From assembly GCF_900291975.1 (NCBI RefSeq), contig NZ_OMPN01000001.1, positions 2,170,001 through 2,234,000 on the forward strand: a DNA stretch of 64,000 bases, written 5' to 3'. The translations under genes were made by a program, and so were the position numbers. Below are positions 34,703 through 48,039 of this stretch, in pieces. Source of the stretch: Agathobaculum massiliense. GTDB taxonomy: Bacteria; Bacillota; Clostridia; Oscillospirales; Butyricicoccaceae. The notes under the pieces were generated by a model. That model did no database searches. It was given only the letters and a program-made list of their open reading frames with translations, and had not been told where the DNA came from. The number at the start of each line of letters is the position of its first letter. Within the stretch, counting starts at the first letter, position 1.

Positions 34703-34854
34703 TATAGGGGGCTTCAAAAGCCCCCTATATACGAAGGTCGGTTCCGGAAGAAACCGATCTTCGTTACCCGAATGACGCCGTCCAGGGCGGCTGGGTCGGG
34801 GTGTAAAAAGTCCGGCAAAGCTGGACTTTTTACGGGAAACCGCATGGCGGTTTC
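34703..34854 (+). repeat. multi-hairpin intergenic repeat, copy R1 (modules A-E)
   Basis: Five hairpins in series fill the rpsJ-rplC gap. A: TATAGGGGGCT with AGCCCCCTATA (34703-34729). B: a 13-bp stem at 34731-34764 with loop CCGGAAGA. C: CCCGA with TCGGG around an inner stem (34767-34800). D: GTAAAAAGTCC with GGACTTTTTAC (34803-34833). E: GAAACCGC with GCGGTTTC (34836-34854). None ends in a T run suited to termination. The same layout recurs near 36.6 and 47.9 kb. The remaining ~135 bases before rplC hold only short dyads. Confidence 0.8.
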
Positions 34855-34990
34855 ATCTTATGATTCCTTTTGTCAACAGGCAGACGGACTAACCCAACCG
34901 GCTGCTTGAAGCCCTGCCGCGATACGCGCGGCGAGGTCATGTTGGCGGCCAAATGCCGTCAACCAATAACCTTTAAGGAGGAAAAACACT

Positions 34991-35689
34991 ATGCTGCAGA
35001 AAGCAATCATCGGCAAGAAGGTCGGCATGACCCAGATCTTCAACGCTGACGGCAAGGTCATCCCCTGCACGGTGATCGAGGCGGGCCCCTGCGTCGTCAC
35101 CCAGCTCAAGACCGAGGAAAAGGACGGCTATAACGCGGTTCAGTTCGGTTTTGAGGATATCAAGGAGCGCAAGCTCAACAAGCCGGAGAAAGGCCACCTG
35201 AAGAAGGCGGGCGAGTCTCTGAAGAAGTATCTCAAGGAGTTCCGCTTCGCGGACTGCTCCACTTTCCAGCTTGGCGATGTGGTCAAGGCCGACATGTTCG
35301 TGGAAGGCGACTACGTCGACGTGACCGGCACTTCCAAGGGTAAGGGCTACGCAGGCGTTATCAAGCGCTTTAACGCGGGCCGCTCCCCGATGAGCCACGG
35401 CGCCGGCCCGATGCACCGTCATCAGGGTTCGATGGGCGCGTGTTCCGACCCGTCCAAGATCATGAAGGGCAAAATGATGCCCGGCCACTTGGGTGCCGAG
35501 CAGGTCACTGTTCAGAACCTGGACGTTGTCAAGGTTGACGCGGAGCTTAACCTGATCGCCGTTTGCGGCGCGGTTCCGGGTCCCAAGGGCGGCATCGTAG
35601 TGCTCAAGAACACCGTCAAGAATAACAAGGTTGCCAAGGGCGAGGCTGGCATCAGCAAGAACCCGCAAAAGGCTTCCGCGAGAAAGTAA
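34991..35689 (+). CDS. rplC: 50S ribosomal protein L3
   Basis: L3 (232 residues) is an early assembly protein near the peptidyl transferase centre. It starts [17 protein letters not shown], the usual bacterial opening, and contains the loop [20 protein letters not shown] with the conserved glutamine that is often methylated. TAAGGAGG lies upstream. The 232-residue length is a little more than the typical 209-215 because of an insertion around residues 55-85. Confidence 0.98.
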
Positions 35690-35707
35690 GGGAAGGAGGA
35701 GCAACGA

Positions 35708-36331
35708 ATGCCTACAGTAGCAGTTTTTGATATGACCGGCAAGAAGACCGGCGAGATGGAGCTTAACGAGGCCGTATTCGGCATCGAGCCCAACATGGCG
35801 GTTGTACACGCAGCGGTCAAGAATTACCTGGCCAACCAGCGCCAGGGTACGCAGTCCACGCTGACCCGCGCTGAGGTCCGCGGCGGCGGCATCAAGCCGT
35901 GGCGCCAGAAGGGCACCGGCCGCGCGCGTCAGGGCTCGATCCGCTCTCCGCAGTGGACGCACGGCGGTATCGCGCTCGGTCCCAAGCCGCGTTCCTACAA
36001 TTACAGCCTGACCAAGAAGACCAAGCGCCTGGCCATGCTCTCCGCCCTGTCCGCCAAGGCGGCTGCCGGCGAGATCATTGTGATCGACGGACTGGATATG
36101 GGCGAGATCAAGACCAAGAGCTTCGCGGGCTTCCTCAAGTCTGTCGAGGCTACCGGCAAGAGCCTGGTCGTCACCCCCGAGGTCCGCACGAACGTCGTCA
36201 AGTCCGCGGCCAACATCCCGGGCGTCCGCACGACGATCGCGTCCACCCTCAACGTATATGAAATCCTCAACGCCGACAAGTTCATCATCGACAAGGCGGC
36301 TGTCGAGAAGCTCCAGGAGGTGTACGCATAA
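35708..36331 (+). CDS. rplD: 50S ribosomal protein L4
   Basis: L4 (207 residues) has a globular domain plus a long loop that reaches the exit tunnel; the loop includes [19 protein letters not shown]. In other bacteria L4 represses its own operon through the S10 leader and contacts the transcription complex, so the structured leader ahead of rpsJ is a natural target to test. AAGGAGG precedes the ATG, and the stop overlaps the rplW start. Confidence 0.98.
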
Positions 36332-36624
36332 TGAAGTTCGCTTACGACATTATCAAGAAGCCGGTTATCACCGAGCGTTCGATGGAAGGCCTGCAGGACA
36401 ACAAGTACACCTTTGAGGTCGCTGCCGACGCAGGAAAGATTGAGATCAAAAAGGCCGTAGAGCAGATCTTCGGCGTCAAGGTCATGAAGGTCAACACCAT
36501 TAAGCTGCCGGGCAAGTGGAAGCGCATGGGCGTCCACGTCGGTAAGCGTCCGGACGTCAAGAAGGCGGTCGTCACCCTGACCCCTGACTCCAAGAAGATT
36601 GAGATCTTCGAGAACATGATGTAA
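36331..36624 (+). CDS. rplW: 50S ribosomal protein L23
   Basis: L23 (97 residues) lies at the tunnel exit and docks trigger factor and the signal recognition particle. YDIIKKPVITERSMEGLQDN and GKWKRMGVHVGKRPDVKKA are typical. Its ATG shares a base with the rplD stop (TAATG). A 196-base gap with repeat copy R2 follows before rplB, where most relatives have a few tens of bases. Confidence 0.97.
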   Translation: MKFAYDIIKKPVITERSMEGLQDNKYTFEVAADAGKIEIKKAVEQIFGVKVMKVNTIKLPGKWKRMGVHVGKRPDVKKAVVTLTPDSKKIEIFENMM

Positions 36625-36629
36625 AAGCG

Positions 36630-36763
36630 TATAGGAGGGACTCCGTCCCCCTTATATAAGTAAAAAGTTTCGAAGAAACTTTTTACGATACTCCCTCTCG
36701 TCTGCACAGCGGACGAGGACGCGCCGCCGCGGCGCGATGAAATGACGCGGACATGGTTCGCGT
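36630..36763 (+). repeat. multi-hairpin intergenic repeat, copy R2
   Basis: The same order as R1 with different stem sequences. A: TATAGGAGGGAC with GTCCCCCTTATA (36630-36656, two imperfect pairs). B: a perfect 11-bp stem, GTAAAAAGTTT with AAACTTTTTAC, loop CGAAG (36660-36686). C: CTCGTC with GACGAG (36697-36717). D: GCGCCG with GCGGCGC (36721-36735). E: ACGCG with CGCGT around a central CATGG (36745-36763). It fills most of the rplW-rplB gap. Confidence 0.7.
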
Positions 36764-47148: not shown

Positions 47149-47426
47149 TGGTGGAGGCCCACACAGCCGATATCGTGCTGTCGCTGACCGGCAGGGACAA
47201 GGGCAGGCTCATGCTTGTCATGGCGGAAGAGGGGGATTTTCTTCTGCTGGCAAACGGGCGCGCGCGCAGAGCGGAAAGTCCCAAGCGCAAGCGCCGCAAG
47301 CATGTGAGCTACCAGGGGCCGAGTGACGGGCGTACGGCGCGCAAGCTGCTGGAGTCCGGCCGCCTGACCAACAGCGACATACGCAAGGCCCTTTCCCTTT
47401 GGACAGGGGACGAGGACGCAAATTGA
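47148..47426 (+). CDS. KOW-domain RNA-binding protein
   Basis: A 92-residue basic protein. Residues 8-35 resemble a KOW/L14e-like fold (IVLSLTGRDKGRLMLVMAEE), and residues 38-52 are highly basic (GRARRAESPKRKRRKH). The end has a small helical segment (NSDIRKALSLW). Proteins of this kind lie between map and infA in many clostridia and are thought to bind RNA or ribosomes; no function is proven. The ATG overlaps the map stop. Confidence 0.8.
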   Translation: MVEAHTADIVLSLTGRDKGRLMLVMAEEGDFLLLANGRARRAESPKRKRRKHVSYQGPSDGRTARKLLESGRLTNSDIRKALSLWTGDEDAN

Positions 47427-47448
47427 CCGAGGAGGGTAATACACATAT

Positions 47449-47667
47449 ATGGCAAAAGATGATGTAATCGAACTCGAAGGTACCGTCATAGAGGCGCTGC
47501 CTAACGCGATGTTTCAGGTGGAACTGCCCAACGGCCATAAGATACTGGCTCATATTTCAGGCAAGCTCCGCATGAACTTTATCCGCATTCTTCCCGGCGA
47601 CAAGGTCACCGTTCAGATGTCGCCCTACGACCTGACCCGCGGTCGTATCACTTGGCGTTCCAAGTGA
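47449..47667 (+). CDS. infA: translation initiation factor IF-1
   Basis: IF-1 (72 residues) binds the 30S A site during initiation. It is a single OB-fold: [20 protein letters not shown], then [20 protein letters not shown] and [28 protein letters not shown] at 47429-47436 precedes the ATG. Length is exactly as usual. Confidence 0.98.
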
Positions 47668-47766
47668 CCCAAAAGCGGGCGGAGGCGCGTATGTGACCCG
47701 AGCGCCAGCGGTCGCCGGTTTTCCGGTGTCCCATCCCACCAAAATTTTTGATGGAGGTAAAATGTC

Positions 47767-47880
47767 ATGAAGGTAAGACCATCTGTTAAGCCGATCTGCG
47801 AGAAGTGCAAGATCATCCGCCGCAAGGGCAAGGTCATGGTTATCTGCCAGAACCCGAAGCATAAGCAGAAGCAGGGCTAA
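47767..47880 (+). CDS. rpmJ: 50S ribosomal protein L36, zinc-binding form
   Basis: A 37-residue protein, [20 protein letters not shown] then [18 protein letters not shown]11, C14, C27 and H32 form the zinc ribbon of the C+ form. ATGGAGG precedes the start. It is followed by a 364-base gap containing repeat copy R3. Confidence 0.98.
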
Positions 47881-47886
47881 AAATCT

Positions 47887-48039
47887 TATAGGGGACTTCA
47901 AAAGTCCCCTATATACGAAAACAAGTTCGGGAGAAACTTGTTTTCGATACCCGAGCAGCGCGGCCCAAGGCCGCTGGGTCGGGGAGTCAAAAGCACGGGC
48001 GAGGCTCGCGCTTTTGATGAAAACGGCATGGCCGTTTTC
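47887..48039 (+). repeat. multi-hairpin intergenic repeat, copy R3 (modules A-E)
   Basis: A: TATAGGGGACT with AGTCCCCTATA (47887-47913). B: a perfect 12-bp stem, CGAAAACAAGTT with AACTTGTTTTCG, loop CGGGAGA (47916-47946). C: CCCGA with TCGGG enclosing GCGGCC-CAA-GGCCGC (47950-47983). D: TCAAAAGC with GCTTTTGA (47987-48017). E: GAAAACGGC with GCCGTTTTC, loop ATG (48019-48039). It matches R1 module for module; B and D-E stems differ in sequence but remain complementary. Confidence 0.8.

Follow-up and report, generated by a model that had tools for sequence, protein, structure and literature searches.

Hairpin arrays between operon genes of Agathobaculum and a possible DNA origin of their matching stem changes

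Introduction

Between rpsJ and rplC, and again between rpmJ and rpsM, the genome of Agathobaculum massiliense carries an array of hairpins whose stems differ in sequence while their arms stay complementary. Are such matched changes the product of selection on an RNA, or of mutation in the DNA? Here we examine these arrays in a window of 64,000 nucleotides (the whole stretch analysed, positions 2,170,001 to 2,234,000 of contig NZ_OMPN01000001.1), together with the family to which they belong. Matching stem changes usually count as the strongest sequence evidence for functional RNA, and an earlier note on this DNA had read them in that way.

The family offers hundreds of stems from some 50 independent sites, abundant covariation bearing the mark of DNA arm copying, and a riboswitch control in the same genomes, and it makes the choice between covariation by selection and covariation by mutation directly testable. 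If the answer given here is true, we are dealing with "RNA covariation" of DNA-mutational origin, which is a warning for covariation-based RNA discovery. The arrays are also natural, precisely placed intercistronic structures in the ribosomal-protein, pheST, grpE-dnaK and pyrF-carA operons of a gut commensal (names read by eye), and they are linked to elements lying between two terminator-like hairpin copies, a product modelled for stem-loop-directed transposition. We put at about even the chance that the copies in the window belong, as old members, to a dispersed, hairpin-targeting family resembling miniature inverted-repeat transposable elements (MITEs), kept as intercistronic mRNA hairpin barriers.

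Results and Discussion

Hairpin arrays in the window

The rpsJ-rplC gap (34703-34854) and the rpmJ-rpsM gap (47887-48039) hold five hairpins, A to E, in identical order, exactly where the earlier note had placed them. The stems it quoted for module B, namely GTCGGTT, ACAAGTT and, in the rplW-rplB copy, AAAAAGTTT, are likewise correct, each with its matching partner arm. Copies 1 and 2 are 75% identical across 71 nt without gaps; their predicted RNA folds reach -87.4 kcal/mol (z -8.1) and -84.0 kcal/mol (z -10.1), respectively, values equalled by 0 of 200 dinucleotide shuffles in either case. A third, divergent copy, again with matching stems of its own, occupies the rplW-rplB gap (fold z -5.9; covariance-model match of 36.8 bits, E 2.7e-7). 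The unit extends beyond A-E, since a hairpin F (ATGCGCC..GGCGCG) follows in copy 2 and, by eye, in many others. The features are as follows.

34703..34729, + strand: hairpin A of copy 1 (rpsJ-rplC), arms TATAGGGGGCTT/AAGCCCCCTATA, loop CAA, 5 nt past the rpsJ stop codon
34731..34764, + strand: hairpin B of copy 1, conserved loop region GGTTCCGGAAGAAACC
34765..34801, + strand: hairpin C of copy 1, conserved ACCCGAATGAC / TGGGTCGGGGT internal loop with an exchangeable G+C stem inside
34802..34834, + strand: hairpin D of copy 1, G+C stem enclosed by A-run/T-run pairing
34835..34855, + strand: hairpin E of copy 1, which by eye has no intact F
47887..47913, + strand: hairpin A of copy 2 (rpmJ-rpsM), 6 nt past the rpmJ stop codon
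47915..47947, + strand: hairpin B of copy 2
47948..47985, + strand: hairpin C of copy 2, inner stem GCGGCC
47986..48018, + strand: hairpin D of copy 2
48019..48039, + strand: hairpin E of copy 2
48044..48068, + strand: hairpin F of copy 2, ATGCGCC..GGCGCG, beyond the part described in the earlier note
36629..36772, + strand: copy 3, divergent type II array (rplW-rplB) with A', B, two C' hairpins and D', 4-5 nt past the rplW stop codon
41495..41586, + strand: copy 4, modules D-E-F only, behind rpsN

Copies, range and module types

A BLAST search of the source genome (3.2 Mb, 2 contigs) gave seven copies, and a covariance model, R1, was built from six copies of that genome. With R1 the genome yields 11 matches at E≤1e-4, antisense echoes included, and about 10 true copies in all; everything else matched is an antisense echo, a weak hit or a type III array. 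The copies lie at rpsJ-rplC, SRP (signal recognition particle) RNA-dnaX, pheS-pheT, rpmJ-rpsM, pyrF-carA, grpE-dnaK, thiI-cinA, rplW-rplB and two more sites, where all gene names except that of the SRP RNA were read by eye. All 25 Agathobaculum genomes searched have matches (5-53 each at E≤0.01), so that the further copies for which the earlier note proposed to search do exist. Across the bacterial family, matches occur in 32 of 87 genomes and 4 of 15 genera, which are Agathobaculum and three related ones; the 15 matches listed from outside the genus all look real by sequence, except for the weak L300. Beyond the bacterial family the scan was limited to one exact pattern, the covariance model being applied within the family. 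The element-bearing stretches number 57, with 54 in records named Agathobaculum and three in "Eubacteriales bacterium S27M_St_5". For the counts below, 169 aligned matches were reduced to 143 copies by removal of overlapping antisense echoes.

A known Rfam RNA was ruled out, as the window arrays have no match and the type I arrays of five loci have none up to E 5; a match to a described Rfam family, which the earlier note had named as grounds for refutation, was not seen. Directly behind the array of L053 there is one chance-like antisense match, to a microRNA family. Open-licence PMC text contained nothing relevant on Agathobaculum repeats or hairpins, only general stem-loop surveys.

The consensus over 46 unique sites is TATAGGGGGcTTCanAAgCCCCCTATATACGaAannnGGTTCCgnAGAAACCnnntTtCGATACCCgaAtGACGCcGCCCAaGGCgGCTGgGTCGGGGTATcaAAAgncnGGCAngnCcngncTTTtgATGn. 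The joints, parts of the B loop and the C core are nearly invariant, the middles of stems A, B and D are variable, and mean column conservation is similar for paired (0.737) and unpaired (0.713) positions. The 5' part comes in three kinds, after which D-E-F or relatives follow: type I is A-B-C; type II begins TCTAAGGGGG.., has two hairpins in C and is seen at rplW-rplB; type III begins TCGATCGAAACCACG.. and stands at rpmJ-rpsM in 6 of 17 readable genomes, where the other 11 have type I or a worn form. The hairpin modules are therefore interchangeable, with a 5' part of type I, II or III joined to the 3' part D-E-F. Being short, without coding capacity and present in many copies, the arrays in these respects fit the description of MITEs.

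Stem covariation: pairing is kept with a chemistry unusual for RNA

In 105 aligned matches, 45 of the 49 pairs have changed on both sides. The earlier description of a repeat family with conserved loops and linkers and matching stem changes holds. Changes on both sides fill 792 alignment cells against 184 in shuffles, and 96.0% of cells are paired, as compared with 78.0% in shuffles and 32-49% in controls with slid partners. For A, B and the C inner stem, 102 rows (the 105 less two antisense echoes and one partial match) contain 3055 Watson-Crick, 18 G-U, 43 A-C and 18 other cells. When each site is represented by a single row, as it can be for 46 of the 54 unique ones (the other eight have no aligned row), the numbers are 1384, 6, 14 and 9, so that G-U takes up 6 of 1413 cells. 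As a control, 24 cobalamin riboswitches of the genus, aligned from 29 matches (L284-L287 and L293 were not aligned) with two invariant U-G pairs excluded, give 887 Watson-Crick, 56 G-U, 9 A-C and 23 other cells, that is, G-U in 56 of 975. The ratio of G-U to A-C differs between element and control (Fisher p 4e-6). Hairpin D is richer in G-U, with 45 cells in 102 rows, 40 of which fall within two loop-proximal, loop-like pairs.

Small steps were counted on minimum spanning trees of orthologous copies (89 edges), considering hairpins in which one or two pairs had changed. The counts exclude comparisons with many gaps, the poorly aligned outer helix of C and the two pairs of D next to the loop. 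Orthologs show 30 double transitions, 68 double transversions, 17 G-U, 37 A-C and 16 other steps, whereas the riboswitches show 35, 7, 35, 5 and 18 (14+4), respectively. The C inner stem holds 40 of the 68 double transversions, and a few ancestral flips may be counted repeatedly there; when it is excluded, 27 double transitions stand against 28 double transversions. Isolated pairs are swapped between close orthologs, for example GC to TA between L043 and L164, and whole modules are replaced as well. Among the pheS-pheT orthologs, L038 combines an otherwise matching A-C with another D and E; at rplW-rplB, G005 and G021 differ in A-B and are nearly identical over the remainder. Inner-C loops read CAA in 66 cases and TTG in two.

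Covariation in which G-U intermediates are tolerated, a mark of structured cis-regulatory RNA and of stepwise compensation, was not found. Since G-U is nearly absent and double transversions are common, the stem changes would seem to arise, at least in part, from DNA arm copying or module exchange; G-T and A-C are treated alike and changes arrive as ready-made pairs, hence the stems behave like DNA inverted repeats. Replication template switching is known to maintain and repair hairpin arms, as a portion of PMC8794818 describes, and is a recognised source of isolated pair swaps. The claim in the earlier note that the stem pattern is that of selected RNA and not of DNA sequence conservation is not supported: G-U is nearly missing, A-C, which should be less acceptable to an RNA, is at least as frequent, isolated double transversions are common, and the riboswitches show the opposite. 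Matching stems are apparently not by themselves proof of selected RNA here, and stem matching is probably not evidence for RNA function.

These data bear directly on the idea that the copies are selected cis-acting RNAs and nothing else, with a function in processing, stability or protein binding, duplicated long ago and evolving by ordinary compensatory mutation with no mobile element involved. Such RNAs would explain why loops and the C core are conserved among diverged paralogs, why orientation is sense and in register with stop codons, why every readable genome has an array of some kind at rpmJ-rpsM, and why folding z reaches -8 to -10. They would not lead one to expect G-U pairs that are nearly absent and no commoner than A-C, unlike in the riboswitch control, nor frequent double transversions, nor the exchange of modules, nor relatives bearing terminal inverted repeats (TIRs), nor a group of six similar copies in genome G028, both described below. 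We consider this explanation unlikely.

Placement behind stop codons

The codon-model gene caller used here recovers nearly all ribosomal-protein genes of the window and misses rpmJ, for which the computed distance of 219 is wrong and the true one is 6 nt. The nearest upstream gene is co-directional for 128 of the 143 copies, antisense for seven and not called for eight, and 99 of the 128 start between -6 and +15 nt from the stop codon, most commonly at +5 or +6. By unique site, 47 of 54 are co-directional, five antisense and two without a called gene, with 38 of the 47 in the same interval. In nine copies the called gene ends 5 nt into the element, whose first bases (TATAG or similar) would supply the stop; 16 copies overlap a called open reading frame. 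Over the 57 loci, gene pairs with an element are co-directional in 48 cases, convergent in one and divergent in one, as against 236, 38 and 31 for pairs without it (Fisher p 0.001), and the downstream gene begins less than 150 nt after D in 83 of 120 cases. The location inside operons asserted earlier is supported by these counts, and from it the operon copies are presumably transcribed.

The further assertion that the copies lack T runs was right in part. At the rpsJ copy no promoter-like or terminator-like site was found, and a terminator there is unlikely; hairpin D, on the other hand, has a 3' arm ending in T4 or T5, paired with an A run, in 108 of the 143 copies. The rpmJ copy has three terminator-like matches against a shuffle mean of 0.7, and two of them, both weak, touch the element, one on each strand. 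A simple scan finds a terminator ahead of the next gene in 10 of the 143 copies; at the SRP RNA site, the array comes after the RNA 3' end and ahead of an apparent terminator. Could the arrays be tandem weak terminators or attenuators, with D and E stopping some polymerases and setting operon stoichiometry? The T runs on D and the two matches that touch the rpmJ copy are in keeping with this, and bacterial interspersed mosaic elements (BIMEs) can attenuate downstream genes according to a passage of PMC3049150. Nevertheless, the rpsJ copy has no terminator-like site, copies precede essential genes, and the arrays behind SRP RNA and rpsN precede apparent true terminators (by eye), and we regard the idea as very unlikely.

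Presence, absence and age of the copies

At rpsJ-rplC, the 19 genomes divide into four with the array, one with a truncated array, two with a different AT-rich repeat and 12 without an array (two of these with other extra sequence), a presence that is patchy on the tree; a fixed ancestral leader at this site is ruled out by the patchy filled and empty sites. The other AT-rich repeat, seen in L126 and L127 (G003 and G004), reads TAATTAGTAATTA.. around a GCGCG hairpin and occupies the same place behind rpsJ. At rplW-rplB, 12 of 18 genomes have the array in sense, one has it inverted and five have none; in L128 (G012) the type II array runs opposite to the operon, and in L122 and L123 (G021 and G005) an antisense type III element is nested behind a sense type II array. 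An array of some kind is present at rpmJ-rpsM in all 17 readable genomes; the rpmJ anchor that located this gap was translated in the wrong frame but still placed it, with a start that falls within the stop codon. Contig ends made the gap unreadable in two of 19 genomes at rpmJ-rpsM (G024 and G010) and in one of 19 at rplW-rplB (G010).

Among the 143 copies, full-length paralogs within one genome are at most 0.83 identical (a figure that excludes the partial 59-nt copy in L167), and the closest orthologs reach 0.995. Because within-genome paralogs reach only 0.83, the type I copies examined in Agathobaculum are taken to be old. Homogenisation within genomes was rejected, as median paralog identity is 0.726 within and 0.716 between genomes.

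Age and patchiness raise the question of whether the copies are functionless fossil MITEs, that is, palindromes tolerated behind stop codons, with covariation due entirely to template switching and conserved loops due to limited age. Patchy presence, related TIR-bearing elements and Watson-Crick-only stems would all follow, and template switching is known to repair hairpin arms (PMC8794818, in part of its text). A fossil would not be expected to lie in sense 128 times against seven and in register with the stop codon, whereas pneumococcal repeats favour convergent pairs (a section of PMC3049150), and loops and linkers stay close among paralogs with diverged variable stem positions, with no recent duplication or within-genome homogenisation. 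This makes the fossil explanation, in our view, improbable.

Relatives with terminal inverted repeats and a candidate transposase

The sister-genus genome G028 contains six copies that are 87-94.5% identical. Their left boundary is GAGGCTGTCGAAAAA.. and their right one ..TTTTTTGACACGCTG, each with close variants; a hairpin adjoins the left end (by eye), and in L296, L302 and L304 the same hairpin occurs again on the right. Several Agathobaculum genomes are also rich in the left-end pattern. Strand-hits, in which one end may count on both strands, number 24 in G021, 18 in G004 and 14 in G007; G000 has one, which is not an element by eye, and G023 none. When 30 such loci were fetched and read by motif, type III stood beside the end in 21, type I in two and neither in seven. 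Twelve complete TIR-bearing elements of 110-267 bp were found, built of the same hairpin modules as the operon copies, and nine of the 12 have identical, terminator-like hairpin flanks of 20-27 nt on both sides. L327, L329, L332, L340, L342, L348 and others are type III elements that lie between two terminator-like hairpin copies in this way. L345 lies behind a TAA stop and has a 7-bp repeat, L353 and L354 have neither hairpin pair nor repeat, and L314 is an Agathobaculum type I core with a left end.

Terminal inverted repeats, another trait of MITEs, are found in these relatives and not in the operon copies, of which one in 143 has a right-end-like match, with one mismatch. The sharing of modules with MITE-like elements goes some way towards the match to a MITE or repetitive extragenic palindromic (REP) family that the earlier note had named as grounds for refutation; the open-licence PMC text held no description of the TIR-bearing elements. 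Its suggestion of a "mobile RNA-like repeat" came near the mark regarding origin. Since the operon copies have no ends, their descent from TIR-bearing elements would be deduced from the shared modules.

Two transposase families were searched for, PF13751 and Y1_Tnp. PF13751 (DDE_Tnp_1_6), which we take to be a member of the IS1182 group, has 11 matches in 9 of 25 genomes. At three of the 11 loci (L356, L357 and L359, in G009, G003 and G019), an end CAGnCTGTC(G/A)A.. stands about 110 nt behind the domain and beside a hairpin; these ends are close to the elements' right end, CAGCTTGTCGAAAAA.

L356 529, L357 394 and L359 1902, minus strand: PF13751 element ends abutting a hairpin (CTGTCGAGAAACC or CTGTCAAAGAACC)

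The PF13751 loci are possible autonomous partners, a lead to the mover rather than proof.

Preferred explanation

We propose that a non-autonomous, hairpin-targeting, MITE-like element spread to gene ends, perhaps moved by an insertion sequence (IS) of the PF13751 type. Judging from the sequences compared, the hairpin modules appear to come from a family with a history of movement and a preference for hairpins where genes end. The operon copies may be its old, end-less members, having lost their terminal repeats or never had them. The arms would stay complementary largely through DNA template switching in palindromes and whole-module exchange, so that stem letters drift while pairing stays. 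Once transcribed, an array could form an intercistronic barrier that shields the upstream 3' end and the downstream 5' end from exonucleases; alternatively, as with REP sequences, it could delay ribosomes that terminate and recycle at the stop codon next to it. Action on the mRNA would then be the reason why loops, linkers and the C core are kept, along with the strict position and orientation. Joints, parts of the loops and the C core remain similar among old copies with diverged variable stem positions, and the arrays lie in sense and in register with stop codons; all this speaks for a function in the transcript. By analogy with REP sequences (PMC12306157), the best-supported one would be a block to exonucleases or to the departure of ribosomes from the stop codon. 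A more far-reaching version, which we hold to be possible but rather doubtful, is that the hairpin-seeking family builds intercistronic regions genus-wide by landing on hairpins at the ends of genes, its modules serving as targets that are swapped as cassettes and its end-less copies as lasting mRNA segmenters fixed a few bases past stop codons, with stems matched by template switching and not by RNA selection.

Several observations weigh against the proposal of a mobile, DNA-maintained family. The excess of A-C over G-U alone is not significant with one row per site (p 0.12); the G-U test sets a model-fitted alignment of the element against a MAFFT/RNAalifold alignment of the riboswitches; and a terminator-hairpin control was uninformative, with many chance hits (GU 32 and AC 29; in a second count GU 38, AC 30 and other 48). 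The rpsJ site shows no target duplication, and recent transposition of type I in Agathobaculum was not seen among the 143 copies, in line with the 0.83 limit on paralogs. Orientation is not absolute, because antisense insertions exist: an inverted type II array in G012, and antisense type III elements in G005, in G021 and behind pheS in G000. The G028 copies still differ from one another by 5-13%, and the left terminal repeat is present in 0 of the 143 operon-type copies (up to two mismatches, within 80 nt). At the 11 PF13751 loci, no transposase gene lies between two such ends, and the ends are related, not identical, with one per locus. Y1_Tnp (PF01797) is missing from 20 of the 25 genomes, including G000 and the copy-rich G007 and G012.

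Comparison with known systems

Like REP sequences and BIMEs, which have been proposed to stabilise mRNA, the arrays are dispersed hairpin repeats behind genes, with a share near stop codons. According to an excerpt of PMC12306157, REPs no more than 15 nt from a stop codon stall ribosomes, and 446 of 4,072 E. coli REPs lie within that distance, whereas most Agathobaculum copies (99 of 128) stand directly behind the stop. REP units measure 20-40 bp in the part of PMC3733652 that gives their size, whereas here five to six different hairpins together make up arrays of about 130-200 nt. As to REPINs, whose mark is a single palindrome of 20-40 bp with a tagged end, the arrays of five to six hairpins do not conform. 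RAYT/REPIN was ruled out, PF01797 being absent from 20 of 25 genomes.

The pneumococcal BOX, RUP and SPRITE repeats are also structured and intergenic; passages of PMC3049150 describe BOX as modular (boxA-boxB-boxC) and new insertions as now slow. They differ in being overrepresented between convergent genes, as the same passages state, while 48 of the 50 gene pairs with an element studied here are co-directional.

IS1272, of the IS1182 family, has an inverted-repeat target, and one of the pathways modelled in PMC5678879, to go by a portion of that paper, duplicates the whole stem-loop, as 9 of the 12 TIR-bearing relatives look; three PF13751 loci of the genus likewise end beside hairpins in related sequence. 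On the other hand, the TIR-bearing elements found here are non-autonomous and 110-267 bp long, the operon copies have no terminal repeats, and IS1272 itself deletes the stem-loop (same portion of PMC5678879). A study of template switching in rRNA (PMC8794818, in the text excerpted) likewise reports compensatory changes without intermediates; there, 61.0% of instantaneous changes are of the transition type, as compared with 30 of 98 here, or 27 of 55 without the C inner stem.

Other features of the window

Ahead of rplC, at 34868-34990, a stretch some 110 nt in length (GTCAACAGGC..GCCGTCAACCAATAACC..AAGGAGG) looks conserved by eye in 19 genomes, whether the array is present or not; it is a candidate ribosomal-protein leader and has no Rfam match. 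Between the array and rpsM, 48166-48277 (L011 1780-1891) gives a weak, sub-threshold match to RF00140, the alpha-operon S4 binding site (22.8 bits, E 0.11). The cobalamin riboswitch at 3694-3887 and the S10-Clostridia leader at 34044-34107 both reach the Rfam gathering score. Finally, behind the D-E-F copy that follows rpsN, the stretch 41590-41790 contains a strong terminator-like hairpin and a TATAAT-like promoter before rpsH (by eye), which suggests that the operon is split before rpsH.

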